Below, piece by piece: positions 5,572 through 8,925 of a stretch of DNA of 64,000 bases. Positions within the stretch are counted from its first letter, which is position 1; the number at the start of each line of letters is the position of its first letter. The stretch is from Microbacterium sp. JZ31 (GTDB lineage Bacteria > Actinomycetota > Actinomycetes > Actinomycetales > Microbacteriaceae), in NCBI RefSeq assembly GCF_016805985.1, contig NZ_CP017661.1, positions 186,001 through 250,000 of the forward strand. The letters run 5' to 3'. Below the pieces are notes generated by a model. That model did no database searches, was not told the DNA's origin, and saw only the letters and a program-made list of their open reading frames with translations. The position numbers were made by a program, and so were the translations under genes.

Positions 5572-6498
5572 TCATACGCGCGCGGGCGCCTCGGTGGCCA
5601 GCAGCGCGCCGAGGAAGCGGGCGATCTGGCCCGGTCCCGAGCGCGGCGCGACCGTCTCGACATCCGGGTTGTAGTTCGTGTTCGTGTTGAGGTCGTACGT
5701 GACGAGCCGGCCGTCCTGGGTCTCGGCGAACTCCAGTCCCGCGATCCGGATGCCGGACCTCTCGAGGAACGCGCGGTGCTGCGCGACGAGCGGATGCTCC
5801 GCCGTGATCTCGGCGCGCAGCGCGAACGGCGGGAACGCCGCGCCGTCGACCGCGCACGCATCGGCCGGGCACAGCTCGAAGCTGCCCGCGCTGGTGTCGA
5901 CGCGCACGGCGTACACGAACTCCCCGCCCACGTACTCGGCGCGCGTGATGAACGGCTCGCGGGTCGCGAGGAACTCCTGGATCAGCGTGATGCCGTCCGG
6001 CGACGGCTCGAAGCCGGGGCCGTCGACCCACGCGTCGAACTCGTCGTGCGTGTCCCAGCGCCGCACGCCCAGGCCCTTGCCGCCCTGGTTGTGCTTGCTG
6101 ATGAACGGCGCCTCGAAGGCACGGGCCCGCTGCTTCAGGTCGGTCGTGCCGAAGACCGCGGCGGTGCGCGGCACGTCGATCCCGGCCGCCCGCAGCGCGG
6201 CGTGCTGGGCGACCTTGCTCATCTCGAACTCGAGCGTGCCGCTGCCGCCGATCACGGTGCGGCCCCACGACTCGAGCCAGCGGAGCACGGCGCGGCCGTA
6301 CTCCTTCGAGGCGGCATGGTCGCGCGTGTGCGCGGATGCCGACAGTCGCGACCAGAACACGCCCTCCGGAGGCTCCGACGACAGATCGATCGAGCCGTCG
6401 GTCAGCAGCCACTGCTCCGCCGGCACGCCCTCGCGCTCGAACGCGGCCGCGAAAGGCGGCCACCACTCGGGGTTCTCGTGGATCGCAAACACCTTCAC
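5572..6498 (-). CDS. ATP-grasp domain protein (RimK-like ligase fold)
   Basis: 308 residues on the minus strand. The ATP-grasp lysine and glycine-rich loop are seen at PFISKHNQGGKGLG (131-144). The acidic and Asn residues that bind magnesium are at GLEFAETQDGRLVTYDLNTN (254-273), and the adenine-binding strand is around TLIQEF. These proteins join an amino or other nucleophile to an acyl phosphate; RimK-like members add glutamate or make small peptides. The N-terminal part (MKVFAIHENPEWW) does not point to a known substrate. It stands alone, divergent from the cysteine operon and convergent with the glucosidase, so context gives no function. Confidence 0.8.
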   Translation of the reverse strand: MKVFAIHENPEWWPPFAAAFEREGVPAEQWLLTDGSIDLSSEPPEGVFWSRLSASAHTRDHAASKEYGRAVLRWLESWGRTVIGGSGTLEFEMSKVAQHAALRAAGIDVPRTAAVFGTTDLKQRARAFEAPFISKHNQGGKGLGVRRWDTHDEFDAWVDGPGFEPSPDGITLIQEFLATREPFITRAEYVGGEFVYAVRVDTSAGSFELCPADACAVDGAAFPPFALRAEITAEHPLVAQHRAFLERSGIRIAGLEFAETQDGRLVTYDLNTNTNYNPDVETVAPRSGPGQIARFLGALLATEAPARV

Positions 6499-6571
6499 CC
6501 CCTCATTGTGTCCGGCCCGCGCGGGGTCGGTCCGATCCGCGCAGGGATTGGCGGATCCGGCGGGCGCGCGT

Positions 6572-6577
6572 TAGCGT
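6572..6577 (+). promoter_or_regulatory. -10 box of a leaderless transcript for the cysteine leader
   Basis: TAGCGT fits the actinobacterial TANNNT -10 consensus. Six bases separate it from a GTG (6584), the spacing at which transcription would begin on the start codon itself. No clear -35 is seen. Confidence 0.55.
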
Positions 6578-6583
6578 GGTCGC

Positions 6584-6610
6584 GTGCACACCTGTCGCTG
6601 TTGTCGCTGA
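6584..6610 (+). CDS. Leaderless cysteine-rich leader peptide (8 residues)
   Basis: GTG CAC ACC TGT CGC TGT TGT CGC TGA reads M-H-T-C-R-C-C-R-stop. Three of eight codons are Cys, against a usual frequency near one percent. It starts six bases after a TANNNT box, ends 99 bases before the cystathionine beta-synthase start, and needs no ribosome site because the transcript would be leaderless. Polycysteine leaderless reading frames that act as cysteine-responsive attenuators are known from mycobacteria, and this has the same design. It is too short to test by homology; the case rests on codon content, promoter spacing and the downstream operon. Confidence 0.7.
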   Translation: MHTCRCCR

Positions 6611-6658
6611 GGCCCGCCCGCTCCACTCGGGAGCGCGCCCCAGAACGACCACCGACAG
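6592..6658 (+). promoter_or_regulatory. Putative cysteine attenuator RNA structure
   Basis: The Cys codons of the leader lie in CTGTCG (6592-6597) and TGTCG (6602-6606). Both can pair with CGACAG at 6653-6658. Between them is a local hairpin with arms CGCTCC (6619-6624) and GGAGCG (6630-6635). Ribosome stalling at Cys codons would block the long-range pairing, so two folds of the leader are possible. The pairing is read directly; the switching is inferred. Confidence 0.45.
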
Positions 6659-6709
6659 CTTCCATGGCGACGCGCATGCCGCCGTGAACCATCCCTGAGG
6701 ACACCTCTC

Positions 6710-7777
6710 TTGCGTTACGCACATTCCGTCGCCGACCTCGTCGGCCACACCCCGCTCGTCCGTCTGAACCGCGTCACGGAGGGCATCGCCGCCACCGTGC
6801 TCGCGAAGGTCGAGTACTTCAATCCGGGCGGATCGTCGAAGGACCGGATCGCCGCCAACATCATCGAGGCCGCGGAGCGCGAGGGGAAGCTCGCCCCGGG
6901 CGGCGTGATCGTCGAGCCGACGAGCGGCAACACCGGCGTGGGGCTCGCCCTCGTCGCCCAGCAGCGCGGCTACCGCATGGTGTTCGTGGTGCCCGACAAG
7001 GTGTCTGAGGACAAGCGCAACGTGCTGCGCGCGTACGGCGCCGAGGTAGTCGTGACGCCGACGAACGTCGAGCCCGACGACGCGCGCTCGTACTACAGCG
7101 TGTCCGACCGGCTCGTGCGCGAGATCCCCGGCGCCTACAAGCCCGACCAGTACTCGAACCCGAACGCGCCGCGCAGCCACTTCGGCTCGACGGGCCCGGA
7201 GATCTGGCAGGACACCGATCGCCGCGTGACGCACTTCGTCGCGGGCGTCGGAACGGGCGGCACCATCACGGGAACGGGACGCTTCCTGAAGCAGGCGTCG
7301 GAGGGACGCGTGCGCATCGTCGGCGCCGATCCGGTCGGATCCATCTACTCGGCCGACGACGCCGCCGGCGTGCACGGGTACCTCGTCGAGGGCGTGGGCG
7401 AGGACTTCTGGCCCGGCGCCTACGACCCGACCGTCGTCGACGAGATCCACCGGATCTCCGACGCCGAGTCGTTCGCCATGACGCGCCGGCTCGCGCGCGA
7501 GGAGGGCCTGCTCGTGGGCGGATCCAGCGGCATGGCGGTCGTCGCCGCGCTGCGCGCGGCGCGCGACCTGCCCGCCGACGCCGTCGTGGTCGTGCTGCTG
7601 CCCGACCACGGCCGCGGGTACCTCGGCAAGGTGTTCGACGACGACTGGATGCGCGCGCAGGGCTTCGAGGTCGCGAACCCCGAGCCGCTCGTCTCGCCCG
7701 CGCTGCACGCCGAGCTCGCGGGCGCATCCGCCGCGACCGAGACAGCTGACGACGCCACCGAGGGGAGCATCGCATGA
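6710..7777 (+). CDS. Cystathionine beta-synthase (catalytic core without CBS domains)
   Basis: 355 residues from a TTG preceded by GAGGA (6697-6701). It is a PLP fold-type II enzyme that condenses serine with homocysteine, or makes cysteine from an activated serine. The PLP lysine is Lys44 in NPGGSSKDR, the substrate loop is TSGNTGVG (71-78) and the phosphate loop is GTGGTITG (181-188). The length stops after the catalytic domain, so the C-terminal regulatory CBS pair of longer family members is absent. It overlaps the gamma-lyase gene by four bases, which favours cystathionine beta-synthase over cysteine synthase. A cysteine-rich leader lies upstream. Confidence 0.88.
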   Translation: MRYAHSVADLVGHTPLVRLNRVTEGIAATVLAKVEYFNPGGSSKDRIAANIIEAAEREGKLAPGGVIVEPTSGNTGVGLALVAQQRGYRMVFVVPDKVSEDKRNVLRAYGAEVVVTPTNVEPDDARSYYSVSDRLVREIPGAYKPDQYSNPNAPRSHFGSTGPEIWQDTDRRVTHFVAGVGTGGTITGTGRFLKQASEGRVRIVGADPVGSIYSADDAAGVHGYLVEGVGEDFWPGAYDPTVVDEIHRISDAESFAMTRRLAREEGLLVGGSSGMAVVAALRAARDLPADAVVVVLLPDHGRGYLGKVFDDDWMRAQGFEVANPEPLVSPALHAELAGASAATETADDATEGSIA

Positions 7778-8925
7778 GCACCGAGCACCGATTCGACACG
7801 AACGCCGTCCACGCGGGACAGGAGCCGGACGAGACGACGGGGGCCGTGATCCCGCCCGTCCACTTCTCGACGACCTACGCGCAGGACGGCATCGGCGGTC
7901 TGCGCGCCGGCTACGAGTACGCGCGCGCGGGCAACCCCACGCGCACGGCGCTCGAGACGCAGCTGGCCGCGATCGAGGGCGGCGCCCGCGCGCTGTCGTT
8001 CGCGTCGGGGCTCGCGGCGGAGGACGCGCTGCTGCGCGCCCTGCTGCGCCCCGGCGACGAGGTGCTCATGGGCAACGACGTGTACGGCGGCACGTACCGC
8101 CTGCTCGCGCGCGTGCTCGGCCCGTGGGGCGTGCAGCTGCGGGTGACGGACCTCAGCGACCCCGCCGCGGTCGACGCCGCGCTCGCCGAGCGGACCCCGA
8201 AGATCGTGTGGGTCGAGACGCCCAGCAACCCGCTGCTGCGCGTGACCGACATCCGCTCGCTCGCCGACAAGGCGCACGCGGCCGGCGCGCTCGTGGTCGT
8301 CGACAACACCTTCGCGTCGCCGGCGCTGCAGCGGCCGATCGCACTCGGCGCCGACGTGGTCGTGCACTCGACGACGAAGTACCTCGGCGGGCACTCGGAC
8401 GTCGTGGGCGGCGCGCTCGTGTTCGCCGATGCGGCCCTGGCCGAGCAGCCGCAGTTCCTGCAGTTCGCCGCCGGGGCGGTGTCGGGGCCGCTCGACGCGT
8501 GGCTCACGACTCGCGGCATCAAGACGCTCGCGGTGCGCATGGAGCGGCACTCGTCCAACGGCCAGGCCGTCGCCGAGTTCCTCGAGGGCCACGACCGCGT
8601 CGCGCGGGTCTACTACCCGGGCCTGCCGTCGCACCCCGGACACGAGATCGCCGCATCGCAGATGGCGGGCTTCGGCGGCATCGTCTCGCTCGCACTGGCC
8701 GACGCGGCGGCGGCCCGCCGCTTCGCGGAGTCGACCAGGCTGTTCATGCTCGCGGAGTCGCTGGGCGGCGTCGAGTCGCTCGTGAACTACCCCGATGAGA
8801 TGACGCACGCGTCCGTGCGCGGCACCGAGCTGGCCGTGCCGGCCGAGGTCGTGCGCCTGTCCGTGGGCATCGAGCACATCGAGGATCTGCTCGCCGACCT
8901 CGAGCAGGCGCTGAAGGGGCTCTGA
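7774..8925 (+). CDS. Cystathionine gamma-lyase / gamma-synthase
   Basis: 383 residues, a PLP enzyme of the Cys/Met metabolism family. The PLP lysine is Lys202 in HSTTKYLGGHSD; ASGLAAEDA (78-86), DVYGGTYRL and VWVETPSNPLL are the usual cofactor and substrate motifs. The start overlaps the synthase stop (ATGA), so the two make an operon for converting homocysteine to cysteine through cystathionine. Sequence alone does not separate lyase from synthase in this family; the synthase partner and the Cys-rich leader argue for cysteine formation. It ends about 70 bases before an unrelated membrane protein gene. Confidence 0.9.
   Translation: MSTEHRFDTNAVHAGQEPDETTGAVIPPVHFSTTYAQDGIGGLRAGYEYARAGNPTRTALETQLAAIEGGARALSFASGLAAEDALLRALLRPGDEVLMGNDVYGGTYRLLARVLGPWGVQLRVTDLSDPAAVDAALAERTPKIVWVETPSNPLLRVTDIRSLADKAHAAGALVVVDNTFASPALQRPIALGADVVVHSTTKYLGGHSDVVGGALVFADAALAEQPQFLQFAAGAVSGPLDAWLTTRGIKTLAVRMERHSSNGQAVAEFLEGHDRVARVYYPGLPSHPGHEIAASQMAGFGGIVSLALADAAAARRFAESTRLFMLAESLGGVESLVNYPDEMTHASVRGTELAVPAEVVRLSVGIEHIEDLLADLEQALKGL

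Follow-up and report, generated by a model that had tools for sequence, protein, structure and literature searches.

Short leaderless reading frames rich in cysteine codons are known as leaders in mycobacteria (Shell 2015, PMC4633059), and further mycobacterial polycysteine leaders belong to Canestrari 2020, as cited in PMC9094748, PMC9031893 and PMC13236596. As described in PMC4633059, PMC9031893 and PMC13236596, these leaders work by attenuation through the speed of the ribosome on the Cys codons. Seliverstov 2005 had predicted Cys leaders for the cys operons in Mycobacterium and P. acnes, and one for the cbs gene of B. longum (PMC1262725); the mycobacterial set in that survey has no conserved potentially terminating hairpin, and its mode of regulation is called unknown. 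In Rhodobacterales, ribosome-mediated attenuation is proposed for the uORFC-8-2 motif before cysS (PMC8632094). Leader peptides of Streptomyces lividans described in PMC8079986 have TAnnnT promoters, are leaderless and precede amino-acid genes, some of them without a U-tract.

The locus studied here lies in the window, by which we mean the whole 64-kb stretch of DNA analysed, taken from a Microbacterium genome of one contig and 3.19 Mb. Upstream of CBS, four loci of this genus agree in every letter with named Microbacterium loci, which identifies the genus. The box TAGCGT (6572-6577) is followed by the spacer GGTCGC (6578-6583) and then by GTG CAC ACC TGT CGC TGT TGT CGC TGA (6584-6610), which agrees to the letter with the TANNNT box, the six bases and the eight-codon ORF with three Cys codons described in the first-pass annotation. 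The end of this ORF and the TTG start (6710) of the gene for cystathionine beta-synthase (CBS) are 99 nt apart (Table 1). Like the mycobacterial attenuators, the element is a short ORF, here predicted to be leaderless, whose Cys codons are clustered and which stands in front of genes for cysteine or sulfur metabolism, and it is conserved in its group; it differs in belonging to Microbacteriaceae, in its commonest form of 8 codons, in preceding CBS-CGL and in using TGT almost always. With the leaders in PMC1262725 it shares a string of Cys codons close to where a short ORF ahead of cbs ends, and the lack of a terminator. With uORFC-8-2 it shares tandem Cys codons of the uORF within the first stem, whereas that motif (PMC8632094) is found in Alphaproteobacteria, with UGC dominant, an intrinsic terminator and a tRNA synthetase gene. 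The S. lividans leaders are alike in the features named above and differ in that none of the 8 listed there is called cysteine-dependent and some have terminators (PMC8079986).

Table 1. Features of the leader and of the genes behind it, in positions of the window
Feature	Position	Strand	Basis
-35-like hexamer TTGGCG	6548..6553	+	sequence; 18 nt upstream of the -10 box
-10 box TAGCGT (TANNNT), putative	6572..6577	+	sequence; 6 nt upstream of the leader start
predicted leaderless leader ORF MHTCRCCR, three TGT codons	6584..6610	+	sequence, conservation, TGT bias
P1a helix, 5' strand CUGUCG, out of ACC-TGT-CGC	6592..6597	+	window fold, pair counts, swap test
P1b, 5' strand, consensus register (Cys codons 2 and 3)	6600..6604	+	partner 6645-6649
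hairpin P2, 3' of the leader stop codon	6619..6635	+	window fold; 97/109 leaders
P1b, 3' strand	6645..6649	+	consensus fold, pair counts
P1a, 3' strand CGACAG	6653..6658	+	window fold, pair counts, swap test
hairpin P3, 3' of P1 and 5' of the ribosome site	6663..6686	+	window fold; genus alignment
SD-like GAGGA of CBS	6697..6701	+	sequence; motif in 104/109 leader-bearing loci
CBS (cystathionine beta-synthase) of 355 aa, with the catalytic domain alone	6710..7777	+	TIGR01137, PF00291 only
Cys/Met-metabolism PLP enzyme, CGL-type	7774..8925	+	NF005871, PF01053

Our preferred reading, to which we give a probability of about 0.77, is that ribosomes on the leader would attenuate the CBS-CGL operon in response to cysteine. 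For the two genes, the best NCBIfam match of CBS is TIGR01137 with 505.3 bits, just below the cut-off of 510.25, and the second gene, whose ATG at 7774 overlaps the CBS stop, matches NF005871 with 630 bits against a cut-off of 513. The NCBI name of that family is cystathionine gamma-synthase; because of the operon with CBS, we take the product to be probably cystathionine gamma-lyase (CGL).

We then present an overall view of the leader in CBS upstream regions. The scan rule (TANNNT, 5-8 nt, ATG or GTG, and at most 14 codons including at least 2 Cys) fits a single place on both strands of the window, the leader itself, and matches 43 of 110 CBS upstreams of 250 nt, while dinucleotide shuffles of these give a mean of 0.06 matches and at most 1 in 100 rounds. 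On the enlarged set of 185 loci, from which 4 duplicates were taken out, 109 CBS upstreams carry the leader by the rule. The first-pass annotation had proposed asking whether the Cys codons and their spacing are kept in relatives, and they are, in 92 of 105 CBS upstreams of the genus Microbacterium (the window counted) and in 17 of 80 named actinobacterial ones; the share within the genus is probably overstated by sample selection, as 109 of the 183 CBS-bearing genomes of the genus were used, mostly best matches. Among the named loci, 16 of 39 in Microbacteriaceae have the leader (Microbacterium 9/12, Agromyces 2/2, Naasia 2/2, Cryobacterium 2/3 and Herbiconiux 1/1), together with one of two in Promicromonosporaceae, none of 35 in other named families and none of 4 without a family name. 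The rule misses some leaders, such as MSLTCRCCR at L008, which has no TANNNT box. In addition, two more genomes of the family show MTFTCRCCR (L205, by eye) and MSTVKSCCCCR (L208) before CBS, and genome G034 shows MSLTCRCRR before a CBS-like ORF (L204). The occurrence of the leader before CBS is beyond chance, and two traits of the mycobacterial type are found here, namely a cluster of Cys codons close to the stop and a conserved position directly before a cysteine or sulfur gene.

As to the promoter, TAnnnT is the published -10 element of S. lividans (PMC8079986). The TANNNT box stands 6 nt (79 loci) or 7 nt (30 loci) before RTG in the 109 loci, GTG being the start codon in 107, and this box is a part of the search rule; two other observations are independent of it. 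A -35 match of at least 4/6 is found in 38 of the 109 leader loci, compared with 6.7% in shuffles. None of the 109 leader-bearing loci has a TANNNT positioned so as to make CBS leaderless, and 104 of them have an SD-like motif; of the 76 loci without a leader, 41 have such a box and 28 an SD-like motif. This contrast fits a promoter and start at the uORF. A strict consensus promoter scan reported none in 6480-6780. On the whole, the leaderless geometry claimed for the window, TANNNT close to RTG, is supported, with the Cys codons and spacing conserved in relatives, and transcription is predicted to begin at the leader GTG. A separate observation concerns the Microbacterium loci L108, L110, L111, L182, L184, L185, L186, L189 and L191, which have an MKY-type CBS start and no leader; six bases ahead of their CBS ATG stands a TANNNT box, which suggests that the CBS transcript is leaderless there.

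The pairing of the Cys codons with CGACAG at 6653-6658, noted in the first pass on the window, turns out to be co-maintained across genomes, as given by pair counts together with swap and shuffle tests. In the free fold of the window's leader CUGUCG pairs with this segment, and for P1b the window's own best fold takes a neighbouring register rather than the consensus register; the leader RNA has no more than a moderate degree of structure (z -1.74, with its stability equalled or exceeded by 15 of 200 shuffles). In the alignment A1, which holds the 101 leaders from within the genus and none of the 8 from other genera, 86% of the P1 cells are paired. For the whole named structure, with its 18 pairs, the figure is 85%, versus at most 39% once it is slid. 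Its covariation score lies above that of every one of 500 shuffles, and in 7 of its pairs both partners have changed, a number that averages 3.8 in shuffles and is attained by 7 of 500. Examples seen by eye are L097 and L166, with the partner CGACAA or CAACGA against UUGUCG or UCGUUG in the leader, and L066, with CGACAC against GUGUCG. The RNAalifold consensus is weak (8 pairs, -2.03 kcal/mol) and counts against the P1 reading; we attribute the weakness to the shifting register of the partner. The interaction of the leader with its downstream RNA averages -15.8 kcal/mol for native and -13.4 kcal/mol for swapped combinations (sd 0.36), with none of 5000 permutations as low as the native one (42 distinct leaders); in 77 of 101 loci the native interaction is stronger than the average over swapped partners. 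A cruder duplex version of the test gives 94/5000. Against dinucleotide-shuffled downstream RNA the values are -14.7 and -9.6, the native interaction being stronger in 107 of 109 loci, and locus by locus p<0.05 is reached in 53 of 109, with the window at 0.05. The 8 loci of other genera give p<0.05 in none. As for the two hairpins, one of the P2 type starts at the stop codon in 97 of the 109 leaders (mononucleotide shuffles mean 65), and between the window and its nearest relative L113 the pairing of the P2 stem is kept, by eye, through a change from C-G to U-A; in P3 all four core pairs vary on both sides in the genus alignment. Where the mycobacterial set of PMC1262725 lacks a conserved hairpin able to terminate, a helix containing the Cys codons is co-maintained here.

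The codons themselves are also conserved. MLTCRCCR is the commonest leader peptide (51 of 109), while some leaders have two Cys only or have lost the first one. All 70 eight-codon leaders have TGT at codons 4 and 6, and codon 7 is TGT in 62, CGT in 6 and TGC in 2. Of the Cys codons in genus leaders 297 of 319 are TGT, and in the leaders of other genera 15 of 20; in predicted genes (at least 200 aa, picked by codon-position G+C) of the window and of ten further loci the count is 14 of 259. The bias extends to leaders of other genera, in which P1 pairing does not reach significance, and this suggests that the rare TGT codon itself matters. In another reading the conserved peptide, typically MLTCRCCR, would matter beyond its codons, either by arresting the ribosome as a nascent chain or as a product in itself. 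This would agree with the conservation of Thr3, Arg5 and Arg8 in the 70 eight-codon leaders; we hold it to be very unlikely, since most conserved bases fall in P1, the number and placement of Cys vary among leaders from 2 to 5, and the rare TGT codon points to decoding. It is still less probable that the leader sets basal expression only, for example by reinitiation, with no sensing of amino acids. Leaders that raise translation are indeed proposed in PMC4833913, with 10-11 bp where our leaders have about 60-115 nt between their stop and the CBS start, and such a function gives no reason for the clustering of Cys codons and the TGT bias before a cysteine-making operon.

The attenuator we propose would work as follows. 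The transcript would begin at the GTG, and a ribosome would load on the eight-codon leaderless ORF at once. With plentiful cysteine it would run through the three UGU codons and exit at the UGA, and the freed stretch of Cys codons would pair with the CGAC...CGACAG segment to form P1, which would close over P2, ahead of P3 and the CBS ribosome site, and give the low-expression state. With scarce Cys-tRNA it would stall on a UGU codon, P1 would not form, and the expression of CBS-CGL would rise. The last step from P1 to CBS would be exerted on translation initiation or by Rho-type termination. We infer the translation of the leader, its response to cysteine, the sign of the control and this last step; the sign follows from metabolic logic and precedent. 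Two points that speak against the attenuator reading are that a ribosome at the stop codon would block P1 as well, and that in some leaders the Cys codons are down to two or the first is lost.

For the output, the simplest candidate is classical translational attenuation, in which the stretch of Cys codons itself masks the CBS Shine-Dalgarno sequence (SD), the occlusion described for the mycobacterial type in PMC13236596. Pairing of the leader with the ribosome site stays at chance level in the Microbacterium set (p<0.05 in 2 of 101 genus loci; 1615/5000 in the swap test; window p 0.67). Here, unlike in the mycobacterial type, the Cys codons pair mid-leader, and with the SD only at chance level. 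In its favour, CUCUCCUGUU of the Promicromonospora leader L035 pairs with the SD stretch (p 0.003), the only significant occlusion among the 8 loci of other genera. We therefore regard direct masking as unlikely; it was dropped for Microbacterium and retained for Promicromonospora. In Promicromonospora thailandica (L035, 1403-1503) the Ser-Cys-Cys codons of the leader pair directly with the SD stretch of CBS, as in a textbook translational attenuator.

In a model that sets a ribosome, taken to cover about 30 nt, at the first Cys codon, the pairing between the R3 segment and the uORF falls from 0.63 to 0.01 (97 loci), and R3 then pairs mostly with the CDS (0.18) and with itself (0.16), showing no clear switch. 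Under stalling the opening energy of the ribosome site changes from 9.82 to 9.01 kcal/mol, and of the 109 loci 37 open more readily by over 1 kcal/mol and 6 less readily; the mean effect is -0.81 kcal/mol with native CDSs and -0.39 with swapped ones. The unpaired fraction of the site moves from 0.516 to 0.559, with shifts above 0.05 upwards in 36 and downwards in 2 of 109. As the modelled effect is small, accessibility of the ribosome site was set aside as the output. A classical transcription attenuator was likewise rejected, as no intrinsic terminator, that is a GC-rich hairpin with a U-tract, is found in 6480-6780; a U-rich stretch (5 of 7) is present in 25 of the 109 leaders.

A version of the preferred reading keeps the same sensor and takes Rho-dependent termination in the C-rich leader as the output, with stalling altering the length that Rho could bind. 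From the uORF stop to CBS the RNA has 47% C and 24% G, the C/G ratio exceeds 1.5 in 105 of 109 loci versus 1 of 109 on the promoter side, and in the interval -75 to -15 it does so in 100 of 109 leader loci versus 5 of 25 loci with an SD and no leader. Seliverstov 2005 also proposed Rho for Cys leaders, calling the prediction weak (PMC1262725). On the other hand, stalling would expose the C-rich R3 and thereby lower expression under starvation, contrary to what is expected of an operon that makes cysteine, and low G may merely guard the leader against misfolding. We consider the Rho output possible, at clearly less than even odds, and these odds refer to the output alone. As an observation in its own right, the excess of C over G between leader stop and CBS has a median ratio of 2.06 (6611-6709 of the window and 108 other leaders), and it perhaps reflects Rho loading or the avoidance of misfolding.

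The device is, as far as tested, tied to CBS-CGL. The model R1, run on the window's own genome, gives 12 matches up to E 10, among which the CBS leader, at 7.7e-9, is the only strong one and the second-best stands at E 0.015. The 3-kb loci of the other 11 hold no Cys leader by the rule, which would miss leaders of another build. Over 199 genomes of the family, with strict filters and low sensitivity, R1 gives 6 matches, 4 of them before CBS (the window, L204, L205 and L208); the other two, L206 and L207, have no Cys leader and are taken as chance. Ten 15-kb sulfate-assimilation neighbourhoods of other genus genomes show no Cys leader at an identified sulfur gene, which is a difference from the mycobacterial type, and the sole rule match in them stands before a 165-aa ORF that is not an identified sulfur gene. 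Rfam gives no match above the gathering score in the window.

PF01507, which we take to be the PAPS/APS-reductase family, covering CysD as well, has no match in the window's whole genome, while it is found in all 14 control genomes and in 98 of 247 genomes of the genus. With no PF01507 there, transsulfuration may be a main route to cysteine in this genome. A link of the leader to PF01507 (40 of 96 genomes with the leader versus 0 of 13 without) is confounded by kinship and is not used.

The CBS proteins differ along with the leader. Among the 61 leader-bearing CBS read to their stop, the 53 from Microbacterium have 323-392 aa and the 8 from other genera 454-457 aa, while 64 of the 66 CBS without a leader by the rule have 434-625 aa, the exceptions being L036 and L008, the latter having the leader peptide. 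The CBS domain (Pfam PF00571) is present in 5 of 5 long and in 0 of 3 short CBS scanned, two of the short ones perhaps missing their last few residues. In the CBS tree (127 proteins, quick method, midpoint root) the short leader-bearing forms and L008 make one clade (SH-aLRT 100), and six full-length Microbacterium CBS, read to their stop and lacking such a leader, sit elsewhere, near Agromyces and Cryobacterium. The leader-bearing Microbacterium clade has CBS without the C-terminal CBS-domain module, and as this is one event, the association of short CBS with the leader is only suggestive. That the feedback on transsulfuration moved from protein to RNA, the Cys leader replacing the CBS-domain module in one Microbacterium clade, is unlikely; it is made less probable by the place of the six full-length forms elsewhere in the tree, so that the short and long forms may be separate lineages, and by the loss being a single event.

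A literature search, with most subscription papers outside its reach, found no report of such a leader in Microbacteriaceae or before CBS-CGL. Lyubetsky and others are said to have published a paper on sulfur genes in 2014. The first-pass annotation had seen the device as extended both to another family and to the CBS-CGL operon; for the family no earlier report was found in that search, and the second part is weakened, a leader before cbs of B. longum having been predicted in 2005 (PMC1262725). The single Bifidobacterium locus in our set, L077, has no such uORF by the rule.

What we describe is probably an attenuator of a familiar kind that occurs in a group new for it and folds its RNA differently; it would work like the mycobacterial leaders, but masking of the SD was tested and not found. 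If the reading is true, cysteine attenuation by leaderless leaders reaches a second actinobacterial family, and the co-maintained helix would be comparative evidence for a switch built of the Cys codons, where the survey of 2005 found the other attenuator elements to be absent. TGT accounts for 5% of the Cys codons in genes and for 93% in leaders, a contrast that gives a testable hint at the design of a sensitive sensor, and the leaders offer more than 100 natural variants for testing attenuation by leaderless ribosomes without an intrinsic terminator.
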